Assembly (NCBI RefSeq): GCF_016629525.1
Contig: NZ_AP024269.1
Coordinates: 5,136,501 to 5,200,500, forward strand
Direction of reading: 5' to 3'
Origin: Kaistia sp. 32K
Lineage (GTDB): Bacteria > Pseudomonadota > Alphaproteobacteria > Rhizobiales > Kaistiaceae
DNA: 64,000 bases
Positions within the stretch are counted from its first letter, which is position 1. Each line of letters starts with the position of its first letter. The translations under genes and the position numbers were made by a program. Shown here in pieces: positions 16,812 through 58,344 of the stretch. A model generated the notes under the pieces. It had not been told where the DNA came from and ran no database searches. It was given only the letters and a program-made list of their open reading frames with translations.

Positions 16812-16844
16812 GGTCTCTTCCCGGAACCGCGCTGCTCCTTCACC

Positions 16845-16990
16845 TCTCCCTGTGGGAGAGGTGAATGAAGCAAGACCCTCTCCCGCGAGCGGGAGAGGGA
16901 GATCGCCGGCGCTCGTTGCTGCGTTCAATGCCAATGAAGCACGCTGACCGAAGCCCTCGCCCGCTTGCGGGAGAGGGTTGGGTGAGGGGC
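16845..16990. repeat. Short CCTCTCCC/GGGAGAGG palindromes after lspA
   Basis: Several stem-loops of the CCTCTCCCnnnGGGAGAGG type occur in tandem (for example CACCTCTCCCTGTGGGAGAG near 16852). They are related to the long units at 31731 and 58219. The first may also serve as the transcription end of lspA. Confidence 0.65.
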
Positions 16991-25930: not shown

Positions 25931-27601
25931 TCAGCTCCGGCGCACGACCTTTTCCGACGGCACGTCGAAGCGCTGGATGCCCTTTCGCGCCGCCTCGTCG
26001 AGCGCGTCCTCATAGCCGGCATCGGCATAGCGCAGCACGCCGAGCGAGGTGTCGTTGTCGAGGGCGCGGCGGAGCCGTTCGGCGGCTTCCGGCGTGCCGT
26101 CGGCGACCAGCGTCACGCCGGCCGAGGTCATGTAGCCGGCATAGCCGCCGCCGCCCGAATGCACGGTGACGAGATCGGCGCCGGAGGATGCCAGCGCCAT
26201 CGCGTCGAGGAGCGGCCAGTCGGCGATGGCGTCGGAGCCGTCGCGCAGGTTTTCCGTCATGATGTTGGGATGCGCCATGGCGCCGGCGTCGAGATGGTCG
26301 CGCGAAAACGCGATCGGGCCGGAGAGCGCGCCCGACGCCACCATGTCGTTGACGGCGAGCGCGAGCTTTGTGCGCGCGCCGTGGCCGAGCCAGGCGATCC
26401 GCGCCGGCAGCCCCTCGAACGGCACGTTCTCGCGCGCCAGCCGGATCCAGTTGGCGACGATGCGGTCGTCGGGGAAGAGCTCGAGCACGCGGTCGTCGAT
26501 CTTCCGGATGTCGTCGGGATCGTTGGCAAGCGCCATCCAGCGGAACGGCCCGATGGCGCGGGCGAAGAGCGGGCGCAGATAGGCTTCGGTGAAGATCGGG
26601 ATGTCGAAGGCGTTTTCCACCCCGCCCTCGCGCGCCTGGGTGCGGATCAGATTGCCATTGTCGAAGACGACGGCGCCGCGGCGCTGGAACTCCAGCATGG
26701 CGCGGACCTCGGTGACGATCGACGCGCGCGACAGCGCCATCAGTCTTGCCGGGTCCGATTGGCGCAGCGCCCGCACTTCGGCGAGCGACAGCCCCGCCGG
26801 GACATAGCCATAGACGAGGTCATGCGCCGAGGTCTGGTCCGTGACGATGTCAGGCACGATGCCGCGTCGAACGATCTCGGGATAGATATCGGCGGCGTTG
26901 CCGACGAGCGCGACGGAGAGCGGCTCGCGGTGGTGGCGGGCATGGGCGATCCGCTGCAAGGCGGTGTCGAGGTCGGGCGCGATCTCGTCGACATAGCCGA
27001 TCGCCTTGCGCTTTTCGGCCCGCTCGGGATCGACGTCGACGGCGAGGATGGCGGCGTTGGCCATCCGGCCGGCGAGCGGCTGCGAGCCGCCCATGCCGCC
27101 GAGGCCGGCGGTCAGGATGAAGCGGCCGGCGAGATCGCCGCCAAAATGCTTCTCGGCGATCCGCATGAAGATCTCGTAGGTGCCCTGGATGACGCCCTGG
27201 CTGCCGATATACTGCCAGGCGCCGGCGGTGAGCCCGCCCCAGCAGATCAGGCCCTTCTGCTCCAGCTCGTAGAAATATTCCGCCTTCGCCCATTGGCCGA
27301 CGATGTTGCAGTTCGCCATGATGACGATGGGCGCCTGCGTCTGCGTCCTCAGAAGGCCGATCGGTTTGCCGGACTGGACGATGAGCGTCTGGTCCTCGTC
27401 CATGGCTTTCAGCGCTTCGACGATCGCGTCATGCGCCGCCCAGTTGCGCGCCGCCTTGCCGAGCGCTGCGTAGACGACGAGGCTGTCCGGATCCTCGCCG
27501 ACCGAGAGCACGTTTTCGAGGAGCCGCAGCAGCCCCTCCTGCCGCCAGCCCTTGCAGCGCAGCGTCGTGCCGGAGGTGACAGGATAGCGCGGGTTCCGCA
27601 T
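25931..27601 (-). CDS. Urocanase-family hydratase, probable thiourocanate hydratase
   Basis: A 556-residue NAD-dependent urocanase homologue. The family core is intact: LIVQSGKPIGLLRTQTQAPI, ICWGGLTAGAWQYIGSQGVI, and the NAD loop LTAGLGGMGGSQPLAGRMAN. However the signature GLPARICW reads GLPARIAW (Ala403), and FCEGKGPFRW reads FARAIGPFRW. Canonical HutU normally sits with hutH, hutI and hutG, none of which is here. It lies 13 bases after the DUF917 gene in an operon with hydantoin-processing genes. The inferred role is hydration of thiourocanate, the second step of ergothioneine breakdown. Plain urocanate hydratase remains possible. ATG 27601 follows GAGGGGGG. Confidence 0.8.
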   Translation of the reverse strand: MRNPRYPVTSGTTLRCKGWRQEGLLRLLENVLSVGEDPDSLVVYAALGKAARNWAAHDAIVEALKAMDEDQTLIVQSGKPIGLLRTQTQAPIVIMANCNIVGQWAKAEYFYELEQKGLICWGGLTAGAWQYIGSQGVIQGTYEIFMRIAEKHFGGDLAGRFILTAGLGGMGGSQPLAGRMANAAILAVDVDPERAEKRKAIGYVDEIAPDLDTALQRIAHARHHREPLSVALVGNAADIYPEIVRRGIVPDIVTDQTSAHDLVYGYVPAGLSLAEVRALRQSDPARLMALSRASIVTEVRAMLEFQRRGAVVFDNGNLIRTQAREGGVENAFDIPIFTEAYLRPLFARAIGPFRWMALANDPDDIRKIDDRVLELFPDDRIVANWIRLARENVPFEGLPARIAWLGHGARTKLALAVNDMVASGALSGPIAFSRDHLDAGAMAHPNIMTENLRDGSDAIADWPLLDAMALASSGADLVTVHSGGGGYAGYMTSAGVTLVADGTPEAAERLRRALDNDTSLGVLRYADAGYEDALDEAARKGIQRFDVPSEKVVRRS

Positions 27602-27614
27602 CACTTTGCCCCCC

Positions 27615-28733
27615 TCATTTCTTGCCCTTCCGCTTCTTCTTCTCTTCCTCGAAGACGTAGCGGGCGATCTCGATGCCCATCGCCGCCTCGACCGGAGGGT
27701 AGACGGACGGATCGAGCACGCCGGCCGAGAGCGGGATGATCGTCTTCGGCACATGCAGCACATGCACCGTCATGCCGACCGCGAGCTGGCCGACCGAAAG
27801 CGGCTCGCCGTCCTTGTCGAGCGTGGTGATGACGTCGGGGAAGGTGGCGAGGCGGGCGCCATCGGCATCGTCGATCGCCATGTATTCGTTCATGACGTGC
27901 AGCGTCGTCGCCTTGGCGCCGCTGCCGATGACGACCGTGCCGATGTCGAAGGCGGCGTTGGTGTAGACGACGTCCTTCCTGGCGATCCGGCCCGAGACGG
28001 CGATCGTGCCGCCCGTCACCTTGCAGATCGCGTCGATGACGGCGGCGCCGCCCTTGCCTTCCGCCTCGAGGATCGCCTCGCCGAGCGCAAGCGCCATCGA
28101 GATGCCGCCGAGCGCCGCGTTCTTCTTCACATAGCTGGCGCGGACGGGATTGCGGGCCGAGGCGATGAAGCCGCCCGACATGTCCGAGGCGGTTCGAAGC
28201 ACCGGCGAGACCTTGGCCGTCGCGCCGCGCACGACGAGCTCGATGTAGCGGTTCTCGGCCCTGTTTCCGCCCACCGCCGTCTGGATCGTCTGTACCGGCG
28301 AGGCGGCGAGGCCGATCGAGCCCATGTCGCCGGTCGGATGCGCGCGGATGTCGCCGACGGCGTCGAGCACCTTGGTGCCGAGGATGGCCGAGGGCAGCCA
28401 GCCGTTCAGCGTCGACGAGCGGCCGTTCTGGCCGACCATCAGCGCCGCGATCGGCTCGCCCAGCGCGTCCTGCAGCAGCCGCACCGCGTGTACGTAGTCG
28501 ACGCCCTGCATCTCCCAGGCGGTGGTGCCGGCCGGCGCGCCGATGGCGGCGGCGGTGGCGACCCAGTCATCCCTATCAAGCTCCTCGACCGAGACCAGCT
28601 CCGGGCGGCCGATGCGCACGGCGGCGAGGCCCAGCATGCGGCCGTGATCGGCCCAGCCGCCGCCGCCCGCCGCATAGACCGATCCGCCGCGCACGGCGGC
28701 CTCGACGTCTTTCTCGGTCAGGATGCGACCCAT
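27615..28733 (-). CDS. DUF917-family protein, candidate thiohydantoin desulfurase
   Basis: A 372-residue cytosolic protein of the DUF917 family, which is often found beside hydantoinases. Recognisable parts are an N-terminal GGSVYAAGGGGWADHGRMLG, a Gly-rich GDMGSIGLAAS, and a C-terminal Lys-rich tail (EEEKKKRKGKK). The published ergothioneine pathway includes a new enzyme type that desulfurises the thiohydantoin formed after hydration. By elimination, and because it sits between the hydratase and the carbamoyl hydrolase, this gene is the candidate. This is inference from context; no catalytic residue can be assigned. ATG 28733 follows AAAGGAAC. Confidence 0.72.
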   Translation of the reverse strand: MGRILTEKDVEAAVRGGSVYAAGGGGWADHGRMLGLAAVRIGRPELVSVEELDRDDWVATAAAIGAPAGTTAWEMQGVDYVHAVRLLQDALGEPIAALMVGQNGRSSTLNGWLPSAILGTKVLDAVGDIRAHPTGDMGSIGLAASPVQTIQTAVGGNRAENRYIELVVRGATAKVSPVLRTASDMSGGFIASARNPVRASYVKKNAALGGISMALALGEAILEAEGKGGAAVIDAICKVTGGTIAVSGRIARKDVVYTNAAFDIGTVVIGSGAKATTLHVMNEYMAIDDADGARLATFPDVITTLDKDGEPLSVGQLAVGMTVHVLHVPKTIIPLSAGVLDPSVYPPVEAAMGIEIARYVFEEEKKKRKGKK

Positions 28734-28750
28734 GTTGGTTCCTTTCTGCG

Positions 28751-30007
28751 TCAGCGGAGCGTCTTGTCGAGGCGGAGCACGGCCTCGTAGAGGACGGCGG
28801 CGCCGGCGGCGATCTCGCCCGGCTCCGACCATTCGTCCGGCGTGTGGCTGCGGCCGTCCTTCGACGGAATGAAGATCATCGCGGCCGGCGCGATGCGCGA
28901 GAACCAGGCCATGTCGTGGCCGGCGCCCGACGCCATCCGCAGCGACGACAGGCCGAGCGTCGCGCTCGCTTCCTCCAGCACGTCGAGCAAGCCGGGATCG
29001 GAGAGCGCCGGCATCGCGTCGGAGAGGACGCGGAAGGTGGTGATCCGCGTGCCCGTCCCGGACATCGCCCGCTGCAGCAGCGGCTGCAGCTCGGCGACGA
29101 AGCCTTCCAGGAAGCTGCGTTCCTCGGCGCGGGCATCGAGCAGCATGGTGACCCGGCTCGGCACCACATTGGCGGCGTTCGGCTCGATGCGGAACTCGCC
29201 GATGGTGGCGACGAAATGGCCATGGCCGGCGGCGGCGCGGCGTCGCGCATCCTTGGCGATGACGGAGACGACGGCGGCAGCGCCGGCGAGCGCGTCCTGG
29301 CGCAGCGTCATCGGCGTCGTGCCGGCATGGTCGGCGCGGCCCTCGACGACGATCTCGATCCGCGTGATGCCTGCGATCGCCGTGACGATGCCGATGTCGC
29401 GGCGCTGGTCGGCGAGCACCGGCCCCTGCTCGATATGAAGCTCCAGATAGGCGGCGATGTCGTCGCGGCGCGCGTCGTCGAGATTGTCGACGTCGCCGCC
29501 CATGCGGTCGATCGCGGCGGCGAGGATCTCGCCGGTCGGCTCCGAGCGGTTCAGCTGCTCCTCCGACAGCTGGCCGGCGACGGCGCGGCTGCCGATGCAG
29601 GAGAGGCCGAAGATCGACACCTCCTCGGCCAGGCAGTCGATCACCTCGAAGGCATGATCGAGCTTCGTGCCGTCGCGCTGCAGGCTGCGGGCGACGGCGA
29701 TGCCGGCCATCACGCCGGCGGTGCCGTCGAAGCGGCCGCCATCCGGCACGGTGTCGCTGTGCGAACCGATGACGATCGCTCTCGCGTCCTCGTTGCGGCC
29801 CTCGCGCCGGCCGATCAGGTTGCCGGCGGCGTCGAGGCGGACGGCGAGGCCCGCCTCGCGCATGCGATCGGCGACATAGGCGCGGCCCTCCAGGAACATC
29901 GGCGAGAAGGCGCGGCGGGTCCAGGGATGGTCGGGATCGGTCAGCGCGGCGAGCGCCATCAGATCGTCCCACAGCCGGGTTTCGTCGACGGGCAGATTGG
30001 TGCGCAT
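28751..30007 (-). CDS. M20-family N-carbamoyl-L-amino acid hydrolase
   Basis: A 418-residue amidohydrolase of the allantoate amidohydrolase / beta-ureidopropionase group. Metal-binding motifs are GSHSDTVPDGGRFDGTAGV, CLAEEVSIFG, ELHIEQGP and GAGHDMAWFSRIAP; the dimer-interface substrate motif GRADHAGTTPM is also present. It removes the carbamoyl group as CO2 and ammonia. In this operon the expected substrate is N-carbamoyl-L-glutamate, giving glutamate. The ATG at 30007 is 9 bases past the hydantoinase stop; a TTG at 30019 overlapping that stop is an alternative. Confidence 0.85.
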   Translation of the reverse strand: MRTNLPVDETRLWDDLMALAALTDPDHPWTRRAFSPMFLEGRAYVADRMREAGLAVRLDAAGNLIGRREGRNEDARAIVIGSHSDTVPDGGRFDGTAGVMAGIAVARSLQRDGTKLDHAFEVIDCLAEEVSIFGLSCIGSRAVAGQLSEEQLNRSEPTGEILAAAIDRMGGDVDNLDDARRDDIAAYLELHIEQGPVLADQRRDIGIVTAIAGITRIEIVVEGRADHAGTTPMTLRQDALAGAAAVVSVIAKDARRRAAAGHGHFVATIGEFRIEPNAANVVPSRVTMLLDARAEERSFLEGFVAELQPLLQRAMSGTGTRITTFRVLSDAMPALSDPGLLDVLEEASATLGLSSLRMASGAGHDMAWFSRIAPAAMIFIPSKDGRSHTPDEWSEPGEIAAGAAVLYEAVLRLDKTLR

Positions 30008-30015
30008 TCGGCGGG

Positions 30016-31389
30016 TCAATTTCCGATCGGCAGGGTGGCTGGCGGCCGGACGAAGCGGCCGGATCCGGGTTCGGCCAGCACGTCGCGTCCGTCGAAGGCC
30101 TGGATCCCGCGCAGGAACGTTCCGCTCACGCGCCAGGGGAGCTTGATGCCGTTATAGGGGCTCCAACCGACGACATTATGCCCACTTGCCCCTGCGTCAT
30201 AGAGGAGCGGCTCGGGTGTCAACACGACAATGTCGGCATCCCTGCCGATCGCGAGCGCGCCCTTCTCGTGGTCGATGCGGAAGTGCCGCGCCGGATTGGC
30301 GGCCATCAGCCTCGCGGCCCATGTCAGCGGCAGGCCGCGTTCGAGCGCGCCCTTGACGAAGAGCGGCACCATCACCTCGAGCCCCGGCGCGCCGGAGGCA
30401 TTTTCCAGCATGGCGGGCTTGGTCTTGCGGTCCTCCGACCAGGAGACATGGTCGGTCGAGACGAGGGCGACATTGCCGAGCGCGACCTGCCGCCAGAGCG
30501 CCTCGACCTCGGCGCGCGGCCGGATCGGCGGGTTGATCTTCGCCTTGCCGCCAAGGCGGCGGACGTCGTTTTCCTCGTCGAGCGTCAGATAGTGGATGCA
30601 GACCTCGACGGTTGCAGCAAAACCCTCGGCGCGGTAGCGGGCGGCGAGCTCCGCCCCGCGCGCCAGCGACGAATGCACGACATGCGCCGGGCAGCCGGTC
30701 AGCGCGCCGGTCTCGAAGATCTCGACATCGGCGAGAAGCTCGGTGAGCGGCGGCCGCGACAGGCCGTGCGCGCGCCAGTCGGTGATCCCCGAGGCGCGGA
30801 CGCGGGCCATATGCGCGTCGACCGCCTCGTGGATCTCGTTGTGCACGCCGGCGGTGAGCCCGGTCGGCGCGATGGCGGCGAAGCAGTCGGCGAGCAGGGC
30901 CGGCGCGATGCGCGGGAAGCGCTTCGGGTCGGTGCCGAAGGTCGAGAATTTGAACGCGGCGACGCCGGCCGCGACCATTTCGGGAATGCGGGCCGGGCCT
31001 TCCTCGGGGTCGATCGTGCCGTAGAGGGCGAAGTCGACGCGCGCCTGCGGGCTCGCATGCGCGACCTTTTTCGCCACTGCCTCGGCCGAGCAGACGAGAT
31101 TGCCCTCGTCATAGGGCATGTCGACGATGGTGGTGACGCCGCCCGCCGCCGCCGAGCGGGTCGACCAGAGGAAATCTTCCTGGTTCCTCTGGCTCAGCGA
31201 ATGCACCTGCGCATCGATGGCGCCGGGCAGGATCAGCGCGTTGCCGAGTTCGTGCCTTTCCCGCGCGGAGGGCGCCTCGCCCTGGCCGATCAGCGCCACC
31301 TTGCCGTCGGAGACGGCAACGAAGCCGCCGGGAATGACGCGGTCGGCGGTGACGACGGTGCCGGAAAGGACGAGATCGAAATCGCTCAT
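30016..31389 (-). CDS. Hydantoinase-like cyclic amidohydrolase
   Basis: A 457-residue member of the dihydropyrimidinase/allantoinase/hydantoinase superfamily. The N-terminal metal motif normally HxH is Gln61-Val-His63 (PGAIDAQVHS). The other metal elements are visible: VAAFKFSTFG (carboxylated Lys), TAGVHNEIHE, CPAHVVHSSL and LVSTDHVSW (Asp). It opens a hydantoin ring to a carbamoyl amino acid, here probably hydantoin-5-propionate to N-carbamoylglutamate. It is the first gene of the downstream enzyme group, followed with 8 bases or fewer by the carbamoyl hydrolase. An allantoinase role is less likely given the neighbours. Confidence 0.82.
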   Translation of the reverse strand: MSDFDLVLSGTVVTADRVIPGGFVAVSDGKVALIGQGEAPSARERHELGNALILPGAIDAQVHSLSQRNQEDFLWSTRSAAAGGVTTIVDMPYDEGNLVCSAEAVAKKVAHASPQARVDFALYGTIDPEEGPARIPEMVAAGVAAFKFSTFGTDPKRFPRIAPALLADCFAAIAPTGLTAGVHNEIHEAVDAHMARVRASGITDWRAHGLSRPPLTELLADVEIFETGALTGCPAHVVHSSLARGAELAARYRAEGFAATVEVCIHYLTLDEENDVRRLGGKAKINPPIRPRAEVEALWRQVALGNVALVSTDHVSWSEDRKTKPAMLENASGAPGLEVMVPLFVKGALERGLPLTWAARLMAANPARHFRIDHEKGALAIGRDADIVVLTPEPLLYDAGASGHNVVGWSPYNGIKLPWRVSGTFLRGIQAFDGRDVLAEPGSGRFVRPPATLPIGN

Positions 31390-31950
31390 GCGGTCACCCG
31401 ATGACTGTGTCGAGACCAGTGCGTGCTTCGAGACGCGGCCGTCGGCCGCTCCTCAGCATGTTGAGGTCTGTGTTTTCGGTCTTCTCAGGGCCGATATGGC
31501 GCCCAGCGGCCAACATCCTGAGGAGGCCCGAAGGGCCGTCTCGAAGGACGCACGGCGCTACCCAAGCACCCGTCGCCCCGGCGAAGGCCGGGGCCCATGA
31601 ACACCGTCCGAGGGGATTGGCTTCCGGCCGGTGGATCCCGGCCTTCGCCGGGATGACGGACCGTGTGTGCCTGGACACCCTCACCCCAACCCTCTCCCGA
31701 GGGCGGGAAAGGGAGTCCGCCGGCACCCCTTCACCTCTCCCATGGGGAGAGGTCGGAGCGAAGCTCCGGGTGAGGGGGTAGGGAACTCTCCGGTGAGGCC
31801 TCAACCCCTCACCCGACGGCCTGCGGCCGTCGACCTCTCCCCATGGGAGAGGTGAAAGGACGGCGCCCAATGCACGATGGGTCAGACACCCAGGAAGCCG
31901 TGAAGCCACGGCCTCAGAGGCTTCGAAGGATGGCGGCTCGGCGGGCGCCC
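31390..31950. repeat. Repeat island inside the ergothioneine-type cluster
   Basis: Three repeat families are stacked: the TGCTTCGAGA inverted repeat (31422-31553), the GTCGCCCCGG/GGATCCCGG pair (31571-31660), and the long CCTCTCCC hairpin unit (31731-31855). No gene is supported. The island separates transporter from enzyme genes and may end or attenuate the upstream transcript. Confidence 0.8.
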
Positions 31951-32709
31951 TCATCCCGCCACCTCCGCCAGGCGGCCGGTACGGCGGGCGACGCGGCGTT
32001 CGAGGATCGCTAAGGCGTCATAGAGCAGCACGGCGAGCAGTGCGACGATGATGCCGCCCTGCAGGATGAACGAGGTGTTGGAGGTGAGCAGCCCGGCGAT
32101 GATCACCTCGCCGAGGCCCTTCGCCGCGACCGTCGAGCCGATCGTCGCCGTGCCCATGTTGATGACGACCGAAAGCCGGATGCCGGCGAGGATGACGGGC
32201 AGCGCGAGCGGCAGCTCAACGCGAAAAAGCTGCTGCTGCGGCGACAGCCCCATGCCGCGCGCTGCCTCGACGACGTTGCCGGGCACTTCCTTGAGGCCCG
32301 TGATCGTGTTCTCGAAGATCGGCAGCAGCCCGTAGAGGACGAGCGCGATCAGCGTCGGCTTCAGGCCGAAGCCGACCACCGGCACGGCGAGCGCCAGCAC
32401 GGCGACGGGCGGGAAGGTCTGGCCGATATTGACGAGGCTGCGCGACAGCGGCAGGAACTCCGCCCCCATCGGCCTCGTGACGAACACGCCCATGACCAGC
32501 GCCAGCGCCGTGCCGATGACGCTCGCCACCGCGACGAGCCCAAGATGGGCGAGCGTCAGGCTGAGCAGGCTCGACTGGGTGTAGATCACCGGCGCGTTGT
32601 TCTCGGTGAACGGCTTCAGGATCGGCTCGAACCAGTCGGGCCGGAGCACGAGCGCGAGCAGCAGCGCCAGCGCCGCGAGGCGGGCGACCGGGCCGACGAA
32701 CCGCCTCAT
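31951..32709 (-). CDS. ABC importer permease, osmoprotectant family (YehW-like)
   Basis: A 252-residue inner-membrane permease with about six helices and the cytoplasmic coupling segment VEAARGMGLSPQQQLFRVEL (an EAA-type loop). Its length matches E. coli YehW (243). The ATG overlaps the ATPase gene stop in ATGA, so translation is coupled. It is the last of four transporter genes. In this setting the substrate is inferred to be ergothioneine, a trimethylammonium betaine, in keeping with the betaine specificity of the family. Confidence 0.88.
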   Translation of the reverse strand: MRRFVGPVARLAALALLLALVLRPDWFEPILKPFTENNAPVIYTQSSLLSLTLAHLGLVAVASVIGTALALVMGVFVTRPMGAEFLPLSRSLVNIGQTFPPVAVLALAVPVVGFGLKPTLIALVLYGLLPIFENTITGLKEVPGNVVEAARGMGLSPQQQLFRVELPLALPVILAGIRLSVVINMGTATIGSTVAAKGLGEVIIAGLLTSNTSFILQGGIIVALLAVLLYDALAILERRVARRTGRLAEVAG

Positions 32710-33701
32710 GCCGTGCCGCCTGTTGCCGTGCCGCCGGGCAGATTACCGCCCGGCAGACCGCCGCAGGTCGGGCCGCCGGCATGCGCGAGCAGGGCGGCGA
32801 GCGAAATCCGGCCGCGCGGCGTGCCATCCTCGGCCGTGACGGGCAGCGCCTCGCGCTGGTGCCAGAGCAGCTCCGAAAGCGCGTCGCGCAACGTCGCCGT
32901 CTCGAGAATGGGCGGGCCTTCCGCCGTGCCGGGCTCGACGATCTGCGAGACCGGCGCGAGCGACAAGAGCCGGAACGGCCGGTCGACGCCGTCGACAAGC
33001 TTGGCGACGAAGCCGGGCGCGGGCTGCGCCAGGATCTCGGTCGGCGTCGCGTATTGCAGCAGCTTGCCCTTGTCCATCACGGCTATCCGGTCGCCGAGAT
33101 GGATCGCCTCCTCCATGTCATGCGTGACCAGCACGACGGTGATGCCGAGCCTCTGCTGCACGGCGAGGAGATCCTCCTGCGCCTTGGCGCGGATGATCGG
33201 GTCGAGCGCGCCGAAGGGCTCGTCCATCAGGAGCAGGCCGGGTTCGGCGGCGAGCGCGCGGGCGACGCCGACGCGCTGCTGTTCGCCGCCGGAAAGCTGG
33301 TGCGGGAACTTTTTGGCGAAATCCGCCGGCTTCATGCTGAAGAGCGTCAGCAGTTCGTCGACGCGCTTGGCGATGCGGGCCTGGTCCCAGCCGAGCAGGG
33401 TCGGCACGGTGGCGATGTTGCGGGCGACCGTCCAGTGCGGGAACAGGCCGTTGCCCTGGATGACATAGCCGATGCCGCGCCGCAGCTCCTCGCCCGAGAC
33501 CGAGGCGGCGTCCTTGCCGTCGATCGTGATCGTGCCGGAGGAGGGCTCGATCAGCCGGTTGATCATCCGAAGCGTCGTCGACTTGCCGGAGCCGGAGGTG
33601 CCGACGATGACGGTGATGGTACCGCGCTCGACGGAGAAGGAGACGTCGTCGACGGCGGTCTGGTCGCCGAAGCGGCGGCTGACATGCTCGAGTTCGATCA
33701 A
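32706..33701 (-). CDS. ABC importer ATP-binding protein, osmoprotectant family (YehX-like)
   Basis: A 331-residue ATPase with Walker A (VGTSGSGKST), Q-loop, signature LSGGEQQRVGVARAL, Walker B (LLLMDEPFGALD) and switch His (VTHDMEEA). The C-terminal 90 residues form a partial CBS-like regulatory domain, ending in a Gly/Thr-rich tail (GGTATGGTA). TTG at 33701 is the likely start, overlapping the upstream permease stop in TTGA. Length is close to YehX (308). Confidence 0.88.
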   Translation of the reverse strand: MIELEHVSRRFGDQTAVDDVSFSVERGTITVIVGTSGSGKSTTLRMINRLIEPSSGTITIDGKDAASVSGEELRRGIGYVIQGNGLFPHWTVARNIATVPTLLGWDQARIAKRVDELLTLFSMKPADFAKKFPHQLSGGEQQRVGVARALAAEPGLLLMDEPFGALDPIIRAKAQEDLLAVQQRLGITVVLVTHDMEEAIHLGDRIAVMDKGKLLQYATPTEILAQPAPGFVAKLVDGVDRPFRLLSLAPVSQIVEPGTAEGPPILETATLRDALSELLWHQREALPVTAEDGTPRGRISLAALLAHAGGPTCGGLPGGNLPGGTATGGTA

Positions 33702-34888
33702 AGCCGGCGCCTTTCGGTGAGTTCGATGATGGCGTCGAGGAGGATCGCCGCCGTGAAGGCGAGCGCGATCGTCGGTACGGCGCCGAGAAGGACGAGATCG
33801 GTCGCCGCCTGGCCGATGCCCTGGAAGACGAAGGTGCCGAAGCCGCCGCCGCCGATCAGCGCCGCGATGGTGACGAGGCCGATATTCTGCACCAGCACGA
33901 TGCGGATGCCGGTCAGGATGACGGGGAGCGCCAGCGGCAGCTCGACCTGGAACAGGCGCTGGTGCTTGGTCATGCCCATGCCCTCGGCCGCCTCGACCAC
34001 CGAGCGGCGCACCTCGCCGAGGCCGACCACCGTGTTGGCGACGACGGGGAGCAGCGAATAGAGGAAGAGCGCGATCAGCGCCGGCGCCGTGCCGATGCCG
34101 CGAATGCCGAGCTGGGCGGCGATCGGGAACGAGGCGGCGAACAGGCTGAGCGGCACGATCATCAGCCCGTACATCGCCATCGACGGCACGGTCTGGATGA
34201 TGTTGAGGACCGGCAGCGTGATGCCGCGCAAGGTCGCGTTGCGGTGGCAGGCGATGCCGAGCGGCAGGCCGACGACGATCGCGGCGGCGAGCGAGCTGAC
34301 GGCGAGCAGGATGTGCTGCCGCCCCTCGCGCCAGAACTTGTCGGCGTTGGTAGCGTATTCCTTCAGGATCGACAGCCCGTCCCAGTGGCCGGAGCCGAGG
34401 ATGAGCGCGACGGCGACCGCCGCCCCCGCCAGCATGCCGAGCCGGGCGAAGGGTCCGAGCTTCAGCTTGGCGATGGCGTCGGTGGTGAGCACCGCGAAGG
34501 CGAAGGCCATCAGCCAGAAGCCGGAGGCCGGCGAGACGCGGGCGAAATTGTTGCCGGGCGGCACGACCGTCGCCGGCACGATGCCGATCAAGATGGCAAG
34601 CAGCAGCAGCGAGACGACGCCGGTGGCGAGCCGGAGCCAGGCGCCGGTGCGCAGCACGGCGACGATGGTGGCGAGCGACAGGATGCCGATGCCGATCGCC
34701 GCCCAGAGCGTCGGCAGCGAGGCGCCCAGGCTGAGGCCCTGGCCGGAGATGAGCCGGTTCGGTTTCAGGGTGGCGAAGGACTGCCAGTCCATGCCGACGA
34801 TGGCGATCAGCGCCACGACGATGCCGACCCGATCGAGGCGGGCGGTGAGCGGCACGGGTGGAGCGGCGGTCTGGCTGGCGTCCGTCAA
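33698..34888 (-). CDS. ABC importer permease with extended N-terminus (YehY-like)
   Basis: A 396-residue permease. The N-terminal half has about five extra hydrophobic helices, and the C-terminal half is the transport domain with the coupling loop VVEAAEGMGMTKHQRLFQVE. The size agrees with E. coli YehY (385). The start is probably TTG at 34888, with AGGGGA upstream; the next ATG would remove the first helix. It is coupled with the ATPase gene downstream. Confidence 0.85.
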   Translation of the reverse strand: MTDASQTAAPPVPLTARLDRVGIVVALIAIVGMDWQSFATLKPNRLISGQGLSLGASLPTLWAAIGIGILSLATIVAVLRTGAWLRLATGVVSLLLLAILIGIVPATVVPPGNNFARVSPASGFWLMAFAFAVLTTDAIAKLKLGPFARLGMLAGAAVAVALILGSGHWDGLSILKEYATNADKFWREGRQHILLAVSSLAAAIVVGLPLGIACHRNATLRGITLPVLNIIQTVPSMAMYGLMIVPLSLFAASFPIAAQLGIRGIGTAPALIALFLYSLLPVVANTVVGLGEVRRSVVEAAEGMGMTKHQRLFQVELPLALPVILTGIRIVLVQNIGLVTIAALIGGGGFGTFVFQGIGQAATDLVLLGAVPTIALAFTAAILLDAIIELTERRRL

Positions 34889-35106
34889 GCCGGTGGGTCC
34901 CCTTTGAAGGCAGGCTGCCTCGGCCGAACTGGCGCGCCGAAATCTCGACGCGGTGCGAGAGGGAAGCTTAGGGCCAATTCCCCGCGCCGCAAGATGATAT
35001 TGGCTAACGGCAGGTTAACGGATCGCGGCCTGTTAACCCCCGGACGGCGACGGTTTCGCCGTCGTCCGGTTTCACGTGAAGTCGCGCCCGGGGCGGAGCG
35101 GTCGGA
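34889..35106. other. Spacer with hairpin between binding protein and permease genes
   Basis: A stem-loop near 35039-35070 (CGACGG/CCGTCG inner stem with CCGGA/TCCGG outer arms) follows the binding-protein stop on the minus strand. Such hairpins often lower expression of the downstream permease genes relative to the binding protein. Two GTTAAC sites occur at about 35013 and 35032. Confidence 0.5.
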
Positions 35107-36018
35107 CTACTTCAGCAGGCCCTTCTCGGTCAGCCAGCTCTTGGCGACTTCCTTGGCCGGCTCGCCGCCGACCTGGATGCGGCCGTTCAGTTCCTGCAGC
35201 GTCTTGAGGTCGAGCGCGGCGAACACCGGCGTCAGGACTTCCTGGATCTTCGGGAACTTCTTCAGCACGTCCTCGCGCACGATCGGCGCCGGCGCATAGA
35301 CCGGCTGCACCGCCTTGTCGTCCTGGAGCACGACGAGGCCGGCGGCCTGGATGGCGCCGTCGGTGCCGTAGACCATGGCGGCGTTGACGCCGTCGGTCTG
35401 TTCGGCGGCCGCCTTGATCGTCGCCGAGGTGTCGCCGCCGGAAAGCACGAGCAGCTGCTCCGGCTTGAGCGTGAAGCCATAGGCGGTCTGGAAGGCCGGA
35501 AGGGCCGCCGCCGAATTGACGAACTCGGACGAGCCGGCCAGCTTCACCTTGCCGCCGCCGGCGACCCACTTGCCGAAATCGCTGAGCGATTTCAGGCTGT
35601 TGGCTTCCGCCACCTCGCCGCGCAGGCCGATCGCCCAGGTGTTGTTGGCGGGCGAGGGCGAGAGCCAGACGATCTTGTTGGCATCGTAGTCGAGCGTCTT
35701 CGCCGTCTCATAGCCCTTGGCGGCGTCCTTCCAGACCGGGTCGTCGGCCTTGTTGAAGAAGAAGGCGGCGTTGCCGGTATATTCGGGATAGATGTCGATC
35801 TCGCCGGCGGTGATCGCCTTGCGCACCACGGGCGTGCCGCCGAGCGAGATGCGGTCGTCGACCGAGATGCCGTTCGCCTCGAGCACGAGTGCGATGACGT
35901 TGCCGAGCAGCGTCCCCTCCGTGTCGATCTTGGAGGACACGACGACATCGGCCGCCTGCGCCGTGCCGATGGAGGCGAGGATCGCGGCGGCGGCCACGAG
36001 GGTCTTCAAGGCTTTCAT
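35107..36018 (-). CDS. Periplasmic betaine-type substrate-binding protein (OsmF/YehZ family)
   Basis: A 303-residue secreted protein; the signal peptide ends at GTAQA before ADVVVSSKID. It contains the family segments IDTEGTLLGNVIALVLEANG, DIYPEYTGNAAFFFN and VYGTDGAIQAAGLVVLQDD. It resembles the OsmF, OpuCC and EgtU solute-binding proteins that hold quaternary ammonium compounds in an aromatic cage. Its place beside an ergothionase-like gene suggests ergothioneine as ligand. ATG 36018 follows AGGAAC. Confidence 0.88.
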   Translation of the reverse strand: MKALKTLVAAAAILASIGTAQAADVVVSSKIDTEGTLLGNVIALVLEANGISVDDRISLGGTPVVRKAITAGEIDIYPEYTGNAAFFFNKADDPVWKDAAKGYETAKTLDYDANKIVWLSPSPANNTWAIGLRGEVAEANSLKSLSDFGKWVAGGGKVKLAGSSEFVNSAAALPAFQTAYGFTLKPEQLLVLSGGDTSATIKAAAEQTDGVNAAMVYGTDGAIQAAGLVVLQDDKAVQPVYAPAPIVREDVLKKFPKIQEVLTPVFAALDLKTLQELNGRIQVGGEPAKEVAKSWLTEKGLLK

Positions 36019-36083
36019 GGCGGGGTTCCTAGGGTTGTCGGTTGATCCGTTCCGTATCGATAGTTCTTAGGGTGACGTGCGGG

Positions 36084-37652
36084 TCAATGCGAGAAAATGA
36101 GCTCATCCGTTGTGATGGACTCGTAGAAATTCCTGACTGTTTCCAAGAGCGCCGGCTGAAAAAGGTTGCGCTCGATCGTTTCGATGTCGAGCGAAAGCGC
36201 GCGATCCTTGTCGAGGAAGGCAACTTCGGCCCGGACGGATTCGTGCACGATCGCTACCAGCCCGGCCGGTTGCAGGCCCTGCATGTCGAGACCCTGGGCG
36301 GCCAGCAGCGCCTCGATCGCCACCATCATCCGGAGCGCCGTGATCTGGCGGTTGAGGCGCTCGACGATCAGCGGCGCGAACATCGCCTCGTCCTCCATGC
36401 CGCCGGCGATCAGGAGCGGCATCGCCGAAACCGGCGCCAGTTCCGCCATGACGCGGCTGGCGAGATCGCCGGCGAGCTTCACCAGCGGGCCGAAGCCGGT
36501 GGCGTCGGTGTCCTCGGAGACCAGGTTGGTCGGCAGCACGCCGCGCCCGCCATTGGCGATCAGAACGATGCGGTTCAGGATGTTGCGGGCGAGATGGGCG
36601 AGGCCGGGACCCACCGATTGCAGGGTCAGCGCCAGCTCGAGCGGCAGCGACCCGCCCGAGGTCATCGGGATGCCGTCGATGACGACGGGATTGTCGTCTG
36701 GCCGCGCCGTCGCCGCCTCGACGGCGGCGGCTGCGAAGGCGACGACGCCGGCCGAGGCGCCGAAGATCTGCGCCATCATCCGCAAGCTGAGCGGATCGTG
36801 CAGATGCGTCGCCGGCGACCAGGGAAAGGCGTCGGCGACGGCGGTGAGCACGGCTCCTGCGGCCGCCTCGCGCGGCGAACCGATCCGCATGGCGACCCGC
36901 CAGGGCTCGGGCGACGCCCGCAGCGCCGCCGCCGCGCTCGATCCGGTCGCCATGGCGACGCGCACCGTCTGCGCCGCCTCGATCAGGGTCGCCCCGGCGC
37001 TCGCGACCGTCAGCGCGTTGGTGCTGACGGCGGAGAGCGCGTCCTTCAGCCGGAACACGTGCGGCGTGAGGCCCGCCTCGCGCAGCGCCATTTCGGCCGG
37101 TTTCAGGACGCCGCGATGGAACACCTGGCCCTCGCCGGCGAGCGCCGTCGCCACCTGGCTCATCAGCCCGATATCGGCGGCGCCGATCGAGCCGAGGCGG
37201 CGCACGACGGGGACGATGTCGGCATCGAGCGCCGCGACATAGGCGCGGACGAGGTCGGGACTGCAGCCGACCATGCCGGAGAGCGCGGTGTTGACGCGGA
37301 TGGCGATGCCGGCGCGGACGATTTCGGGCGCCAGCGGCTCGCCGACGCCGAAATGGTGGGCGCGGACGAGATCGGTGCGGTCGGTCGAACTGGTGAGGGC
37401 GACCGCGCGATCCTTGATCGCGCCGACTCCGGTCGTCACGCCATAGAGCGGACGCCCGCCCTCGACCGCCCCGCGCACCGCCTCGTAGGCGTTCTGCACT
37501 TCGACGAGGCGAACTTCGCATGGCACGACATGCAGCAGTCCGCGCCCGATCAGGGAAAGCGTCGACAGGCGGAGGGTCGAGCCGTCCAGGACGATCGTGT
37601 CGCGCTGCGATCCGGTGGCGTCTCCCAGCAATATTTCGGCGGCAGGCGGCAT
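36084..37652 (-). CDS. MIO-less aromatic ammonia-lyase homologue, probable ergothionase
   Basis: A 522-residue protein with the histidine/phenylalanine ammonia-lyase fold. The catalytic-Tyr loop is LYGVTTGVGAIKD (Tyr70) and LVRAHHFGVGEPL matches the family. But GSxGASGDL, which self-cyclises to the MIO group, reads GSIGAADIG (Ala158-Ala159-Asp160), so MIO cannot form in the usual way. Ergothionases belong to this family and eliminate trimethylamine from ergothioneine by acid/base chemistry, and the gene is next to a betaine-type importer. Therefore an ergothionase is inferred. The ATG at 37652 follows AAGGA. It is first in the minus-strand cluster. Alternative: lyase for another betaine such as hercynine. 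Confidence 0.82.
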   Translation of the reverse strand: MPPAAEILLGDATGSQRDTIVLDGSTLRLSTLSLIGRGLLHVVPCEVRLVEVQNAYEAVRGAVEGGRPLYGVTTGVGAIKDRAVALTSSTDRTDLVRAHHFGVGEPLAPEIVRAGIAIRVNTALSGMVGCSPDLVRAYVAALDADIVPVVRRLGSIGAADIGLMSQVATALAGEGQVFHRGVLKPAEMALREAGLTPHVFRLKDALSAVSTNALTVASAGATLIEAAQTVRVAMATGSSAAAALRASPEPWRVAMRIGSPREAAAGAVLTAVADAFPWSPATHLHDPLSLRMMAQIFGASAGVVAFAAAAVEAATARPDDNPVVIDGIPMTSGGSLPLELALTLQSVGPGLAHLARNILNRIVLIANGGRGVLPTNLVSEDTDATGFGPLVKLAGDLASRVMAELAPVSAMPLLIAGGMEDEAMFAPLIVERLNRQITALRMMVAIEALLAAQGLDMQGLQPAGLVAIVHESVRAEVAFLDKDRALSLDIETIERNLFQPALLETVRNFYESITTDELIFSH

Positions 37653-58218: not shown

Positions 58219-58344
58219 TCACCTCTCCCATGGGGAGAGGTCGGAGCGAAGCTCCGGGTGAGGGGGTAGGGAATTTTCCGGAGAGGGCTTTACCCCTCAC
58301 CCGCCGTCCTTCGGCCGTCGACCTCTCCCTCAGGGAGAGGTGAA
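58219..58344. repeat. Long CCTCTCCC hairpin repeat unit
   Basis: About 126 bases nearly identical to 31731-31855: TCACCTCTCCCATGGGGAGA, GGTCGGAGCGAAGCTCCGGG, TGAGGGGGTAGGGAA, CCCCTCACCC, CGGCCGTCGACCTCTCCC. It is preceded at 58152-58185 by a CCTCCCCCTTGCGGGGAGGG palindrome. It fills the gap between DUF924 and the convergent rmuC. Confidence 0.85.

Follow-up and report, generated by a model that had tools for sequence, protein, structure and literature searches.

The stretch of DNA considered here, called the window in what follows, is the 64,000 nucleotides at positions 5,136,501 to 5,200,500 of contig NZ_AP024269.1 of Kaistia sp. 32K, the genome of which is one contig of 5.35 Mb. Nine adjoining genes, all on the minus strand, occupy positions 25931-37652 of this window. 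In order of transcription they encode a lyase, a binding protein, a permease, an ATPase, a second permease, ErtD, ErtE, a desulfurase, and a hydratase, and, judging by sequence, these genes probably constitute one locus for the uptake and use of ergothioneine, one that may be jointly expressed. Ergothioneine is a mushroom- and diet-derived antioxidant, the bacterial breakdown of which gives trimethylamine. A first-pass annotation had provided a parts list for such a locus, and every gene named there was indeed found, on this strand and within these bounds:

36084..37652, minus strand: MIO-less (MIO, 4-methylideneimidazole-5-one) aromatic-lyase homologue, likely an ergothionase (522 amino acids; PF00221, MIO loop, K392, fold near 6s7j)
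35107..36018, minus strand: OsmF-type substrate-binding protein with a signal-peptide-like start (303 amino acids; NF049931, PF04069, pocket comparison)
33698..34888, minus strand: ATP-binding cassette (ABC) permease 1 of the importer (396 amino acids; PF00528; next to the binding-protein gene in 23 of the 80 loci described below)
32706..33701, minus strand: ABC ATPase of the importer (331 amino acids; PF00005)
31951..32709, minus strand: ABC permease 2 of the importer (252 amino acids; PF00528)
30016..31389, minus strand: ErtD family, hydantoin-5-propionate amidohydrolase, hydantoinase-like (457 amino acids; NF058538)
28751..30019, minus strand: ErtE family, N-carbamyl-L-glutamate amidohydrolase, an M20 amidase (422 amino acids; NF058540)
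27615..28733, minus strand: thiohydantoin desulfurase family, DUF917 (372 amino acids; NF058529)
25931..27601, minus strand: thiourocanate hydratase family, urocanase-like (556 amino acids; NF058530)

The start codons of the desulfurase and hydratase genes are our choice, the mechanically called open reading frames beginning further upstream, and for NCBIfam scoring the desulfurase was scanned from 28739 and the hydratase from 27610.

A five-step bacterial catabolism of ergothioneine has reportedly been published by the Seebeck group, and that this pathway is already in print is implied as well by the existence of curated NCBIfam models. All four of the enzymes that follow the lyase pass those models, i.e., the hydratase with 1038 bits (NF058530, cut-off 930), the desulfurase with 586.6 (NF058529, cut-off 440), ErtD with 770.8 (NF058538, cut-off 600), and ErtE with 601.1 (NF058540, cut-off 520), and the complete sequence of reactions can be written down. 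The OsmF-type ABC importer, that is, would bring ergothioneine into the cell, the MIO-less lyase would release trimethylamine from it, leaving thiourocanate, and hydratase, desulfurase, ErtD, and ErtE would then convert the latter to glutamate along with sulfide, CO2, and ammonia. Where the Kaistia locus differs from the published pathway is in its lyase, which belongs to a distinct and distant lineage, and in an importer built into the locus itself. ErtD does not pass the second ErtD model, and ErtE is over cut-off as well for the Zn-dependent hydrolase model NF009531 (593.3 bits against 486) and for TIGR01879. The solved structure closest to the hydratase, 7ned, is filed as a urocanate hydratase but itself passes NF058530 (1018.6 bits against 930). 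By sequence, no solved structure close to the desulfurase was found, the only one near being 2o3i at 41.2 bits, and the structure prediction for this enzyme is of low confidence (mean predicted local distance difference test score of 71.4). Two adjacent further DUF917 proteins are encoded elsewhere in the host genome (G000:C1:3278299-3280378), and at 89 and 74 bits these lie under the desulfurase cut-off.

The lyase (36084-37652) is placed by Pfam in PF00221, and yet it falls under both of the NCBIfam HutH cut-offs (185 bits against 539 and 208 against 524). Its loop aligns as GSIG-A-ADIGLM, which is one residue shorter than GSVGASGDLAP, and because of that missing residue the MIO triad is lost; the initial description of this enzyme as MIO-less thus stands. 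Among the related loci described below, GS[IM]G[CA]ADIGLM is seen in 80 of 80, with no Ala-Ser-Gly triad. Lysine K392 aligns with K384 of the Treponema denticola ergothionase (P0121), a residue which we take to be catalytic in the active site of that enzyme, while the HutH group has Val at this position; K392 is kept in 80 of 81 alignment rows, the remaining row being partial and having a gap there. The predicted fold is nearest, by a small margin, to that same ergothionase (6s7j), with which the lyase has in common the fold, the loop shortened by one residue, the lysine, and 11 further group-defining columns. The two nevertheless are only some 25-27% identical, with ADIGLM in the Kaistia loop replacing E[GA]DI, and an unrooted tree with long branches separates three groups, including the lyase lineage, the characterised ergothionase, and HutH. 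From its sequence, then, the lyase is likely an ergothionase, converting ergothioneine to trimethylamine and thiourocanate.

The nearest named relative of this lyase is that of Kaistia granuli, at 96% identity, and among 14 genomes of Kaistia, 7 have the enzyme with at least 90% identity. When compared with those of other genera (L043-L117), the Kaistia lyase displays a median identity of 46.6%, versus 56.7-78.2% for its partner enzymes, as if it had been replaced or were evolving fast. A further aromatic-lyase relative (L013:1458-2972), 31% identical, belongs to another lineage, in which the MIO loop again lacks one residue and Lys occupies the 392 position; possibly it represents a third MIO-less lyase.

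A locus with an ammonia-lyase homologue and a urocanase homologue could also be read as a branch of histidine utilisation (Hut), and for this the PF00221 assignment may be cited, as may the hydratase's passing of the broad hutU model (706.2 bits, cut-off 375). The absent MIO triad and the failed HutH models nonetheless speak against it, and the rest of a histidine route does not appear in the host genome: a genome search found no second HutH-type lyase, the single match being the locus gene, no second HutU, the sole hutU match being the locus hydratase, and no HutI over cut-off, the best match having 42.4 bits versus 298. Another genome of the genus (G002) has, besides its own version of the cluster lyase, a HutI gene and, next to that, a HutH-like gene. 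The thiourocanate hydratase model discriminates in 14 other genomes, of which 12 hold a copy at 977-1053 bits and 9 an additional, HutU-like copy at 671-686. We reject the Hut reading as exceedingly improbable. The catabolic reading made in the initial annotation is supported as far as sequence can support it.

It is a different matter whether ergothioneine as such is what this lyase acts upon, or instead chiefly a relative of it, i.e., the sulfonate, an S-methyl form, or hercynine. An ergothioneine sulfonate route has reportedly been described for Agrobacterium radiobacter, and the lyase is, as noted, far from the characterised ergothionase. Hydratase and desulfurase, however, pass the unmethylated thio models and not the S-methyl ones (768.4 bits against a cut-off of 880 and 283.1 against 450, respectively), and by established chemistry a sulfur-free or sulfonate compound needs no thiohydantoin desulfurase. 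A relative as main substrate consequently seems improbable.

The gene set recurs. A scan of genome contigs found 263 relatives of the lyase, the best 80 of which are the loci counted here, with partner genes located by tblastn using the genes of the window. All four partner enzymes are present in 63 of the 80, the full importer in 23, and both in 15, and because four partner enzymes adjoin so many related lyases, the set is not a product of chance. Of the 17 loci with fewer than four enzymes, three (L040, L042, and L091) are truncated where their contigs end. Among the 14 uncut exceptions, the genome has a desulfurase over cut-off in 12 and a hydratase in 12, several of them away from the lyase; for L077, by coordinates apparently genome G023 and rated 98% complete, neither is found. 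The genome of L081 (G082) retains its lyase, with desulfurase and hydratase there only as broken pieces, which represents either decay or an assembly error. At the level of the order, 5 of 199 genomes have the desulfurase over cut-off, and at that of the class 5 of 289 do, with the host genome included in both counts. EgtD, for making ergothioneine, was seen in none of the 14 Kaistia genomes and in 12 of 61 relatives.

The importer is where the first-pass annotation has to be amended, as it had placed this transporter in the EgtU/EgtV family. A likeness to EgtU, the ergothioneine importer of Firmicutes, does exist at the level of the wide family, that is, PF04069 with PF00528 and PF00005 (PMC9732360). 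The binding protein, however, passes the OsmF model NF049931 (505.8 bits, cut-off 400) as well as PF04069, matches the solved OsmF 4wep at 352.8 bits, and is encoded separately from the permease (35107-36018 and 33698-34888) rather than fused with it as in EgtU, the Kaistia importer consisting of a separate binding protein and two permeases. The ATPase is nearest to the proV model of NCBIfam, below its cut-off. Pockets were compared using 13 EgtUC ligand residues named in PMC9732360, the alignment to EgtUC (7txl) passing through an EgtU-like protein of Ligilactobacillus salivarius. Seven of the 13 are kept (K242, I243, T275, N339, E375, Y419, and Y443) and six are changed (G244 to D, T274, F293 to Y, T296, Y341, and R379 to S). 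Membership in EgtU is rejected on these residues, the changes at G244 and F293 among them. With OsmF/YehZ importers the differences are instead that the Kaistia unit sits within a catabolic cluster and that the E. coli row has R at the 379 position where the Kaistia protein has S. By EgtUC position, Y80, W128, Y217, Y241, and N126 of the binding protein would form a cage around the trimethylammonium group, and the carboxylate would lie close to K30 and the imidazole close to E165.

Does this importer carry ergothioneine, or is it instead a general betaine importer, for glycine betaine, choline, or hercynine, with the enzymes still using ergothioneine that enters otherwise? Several observations weigh toward the latter. 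The model passed is one for glycine betaine. The pocket is identical in unlinked OsmF proteins, except for an Ala/Gly lean at the position which in EgtUC contacts the thione sulfur (Gly in 21 of 24 linked versus 3 of 23 unlinked rows). The desulfurase is absent from 29 of 34 OsmF genomes, 57 of the 80 lyase loci are without importer, and S. meliloti has a 75% identical importer unit without neighbouring enzymes of this kind. On the other side, 23 of the 80 loci include the importer within the cluster, and it adjoins the lyase in Kaistia, Devosia, Martelella, Salinarimonas, Chthonobacter, Bauldia, and one contig labelled Marinicella. Linked OsmF proteins do not form one clade, with five changes of linkage needed in the tree, at least four of these on well-supported branches. 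OsmF accompanies the desulfurase in 5 of 5 genomes having the latter, versus 34 among all 199 (1.1e-4, kinship not being corrected for), and Pfam detects in the ATPase no osmosensing-type CBS domain. A general betaine importer we thus consider unlikely. Adjacency to the lyase across genera, repeated changes of linkage, and co-occurrence with the desulfurase favour ergothioneine as cargo, and the importer of the cluster likely is an ergothioneine importer, its binding of that compound being suggested by context. A pocket signature for cluster-linked importers was considered as well and dropped, there being one leaning position only and too few independent pairs in the tree.

Also in line with ergothioneine as cargo, 28 of 32 genomes (the host plus author-selected genomes of 31 of the 80 loci) have OsmF over cut-off, including 11 of 15 without an importer in the lyase locus. 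Stand-alone, four-gene OsmF importers (L160-L172, L034) are found in genomes both with and without the pathway. Outside of clusters no neighbour family is common to OsmF importers, none occurring in more than 6 of 21 regions (20 plus one of S. meliloti), importer genes and overlapping open reading frames aside. In clusters without OsmF, five recurring neighbour families were Pfam-scanned (LysR, UbiB-like, UbiE, TfoX-like, and AraC-type, several other recurring families not being scanned) and no alternative transporter was among them; one such cluster, L055, has one major facilitator superfamily (MFS) gene. A broader proposal, which we offer tentatively and with rather less than even confidence, is that OsmF/YehZYXW-type importers, now filed under glycine betaine, are ergothioneine importers of Proteobacteria, i.e., a second pocket solution beside EgtU, repeatedly taken into the ergothioneine-eating clusters of Hyphomicrobiales and elsewhere standing alone, there supplying an antioxidant rather than food.

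What goes beyond the published pathway is the importer within the cluster along with the divergent lyase lineage, and the importer would be, should this sequence-derived reading hold, a new kind of ergothioneine importer. A literature search found no link of OsmF/YehZ to ergothioneine, though its coverage lacked the central papers on ergothionase, catabolism, the sulfonate, and cross-feeding, and so is no proof of absence from print. A 2026 study (PMC13405746) has ergothionase limited to a few genera, with divergent homologues left open. The lyase lineage described here is present, together with its enzyme set, in many members of the Hyphomicrobiales, either clustered or dispersed over the genome, and can be counted by a sequence rule. 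The cluster-borne importer, in turn, makes Gram-negative uptake of ergothioneine directly testable.

As to the surroundings of these genes, a LysR-type regulator gene lies beside the lyase in 34 of the 80 loci, in L044 on the opposite strand (L044:8671-9837, minus), and the one LysR-type protein scanned has two helix-turn-helix stretches; no LysR-type gene lies beside the lyase in the Kaistia window. A hairpin 3' of the binding-protein gene does not exceed shuffled sequences in stability (z -0.14). The 561-base gap between the importer and ErtD genes (31390-31950) contains a palindromic repeat element, which might divide the operon, and that element recurs twice more in the window, at 58220-58342 and 16841-16863.
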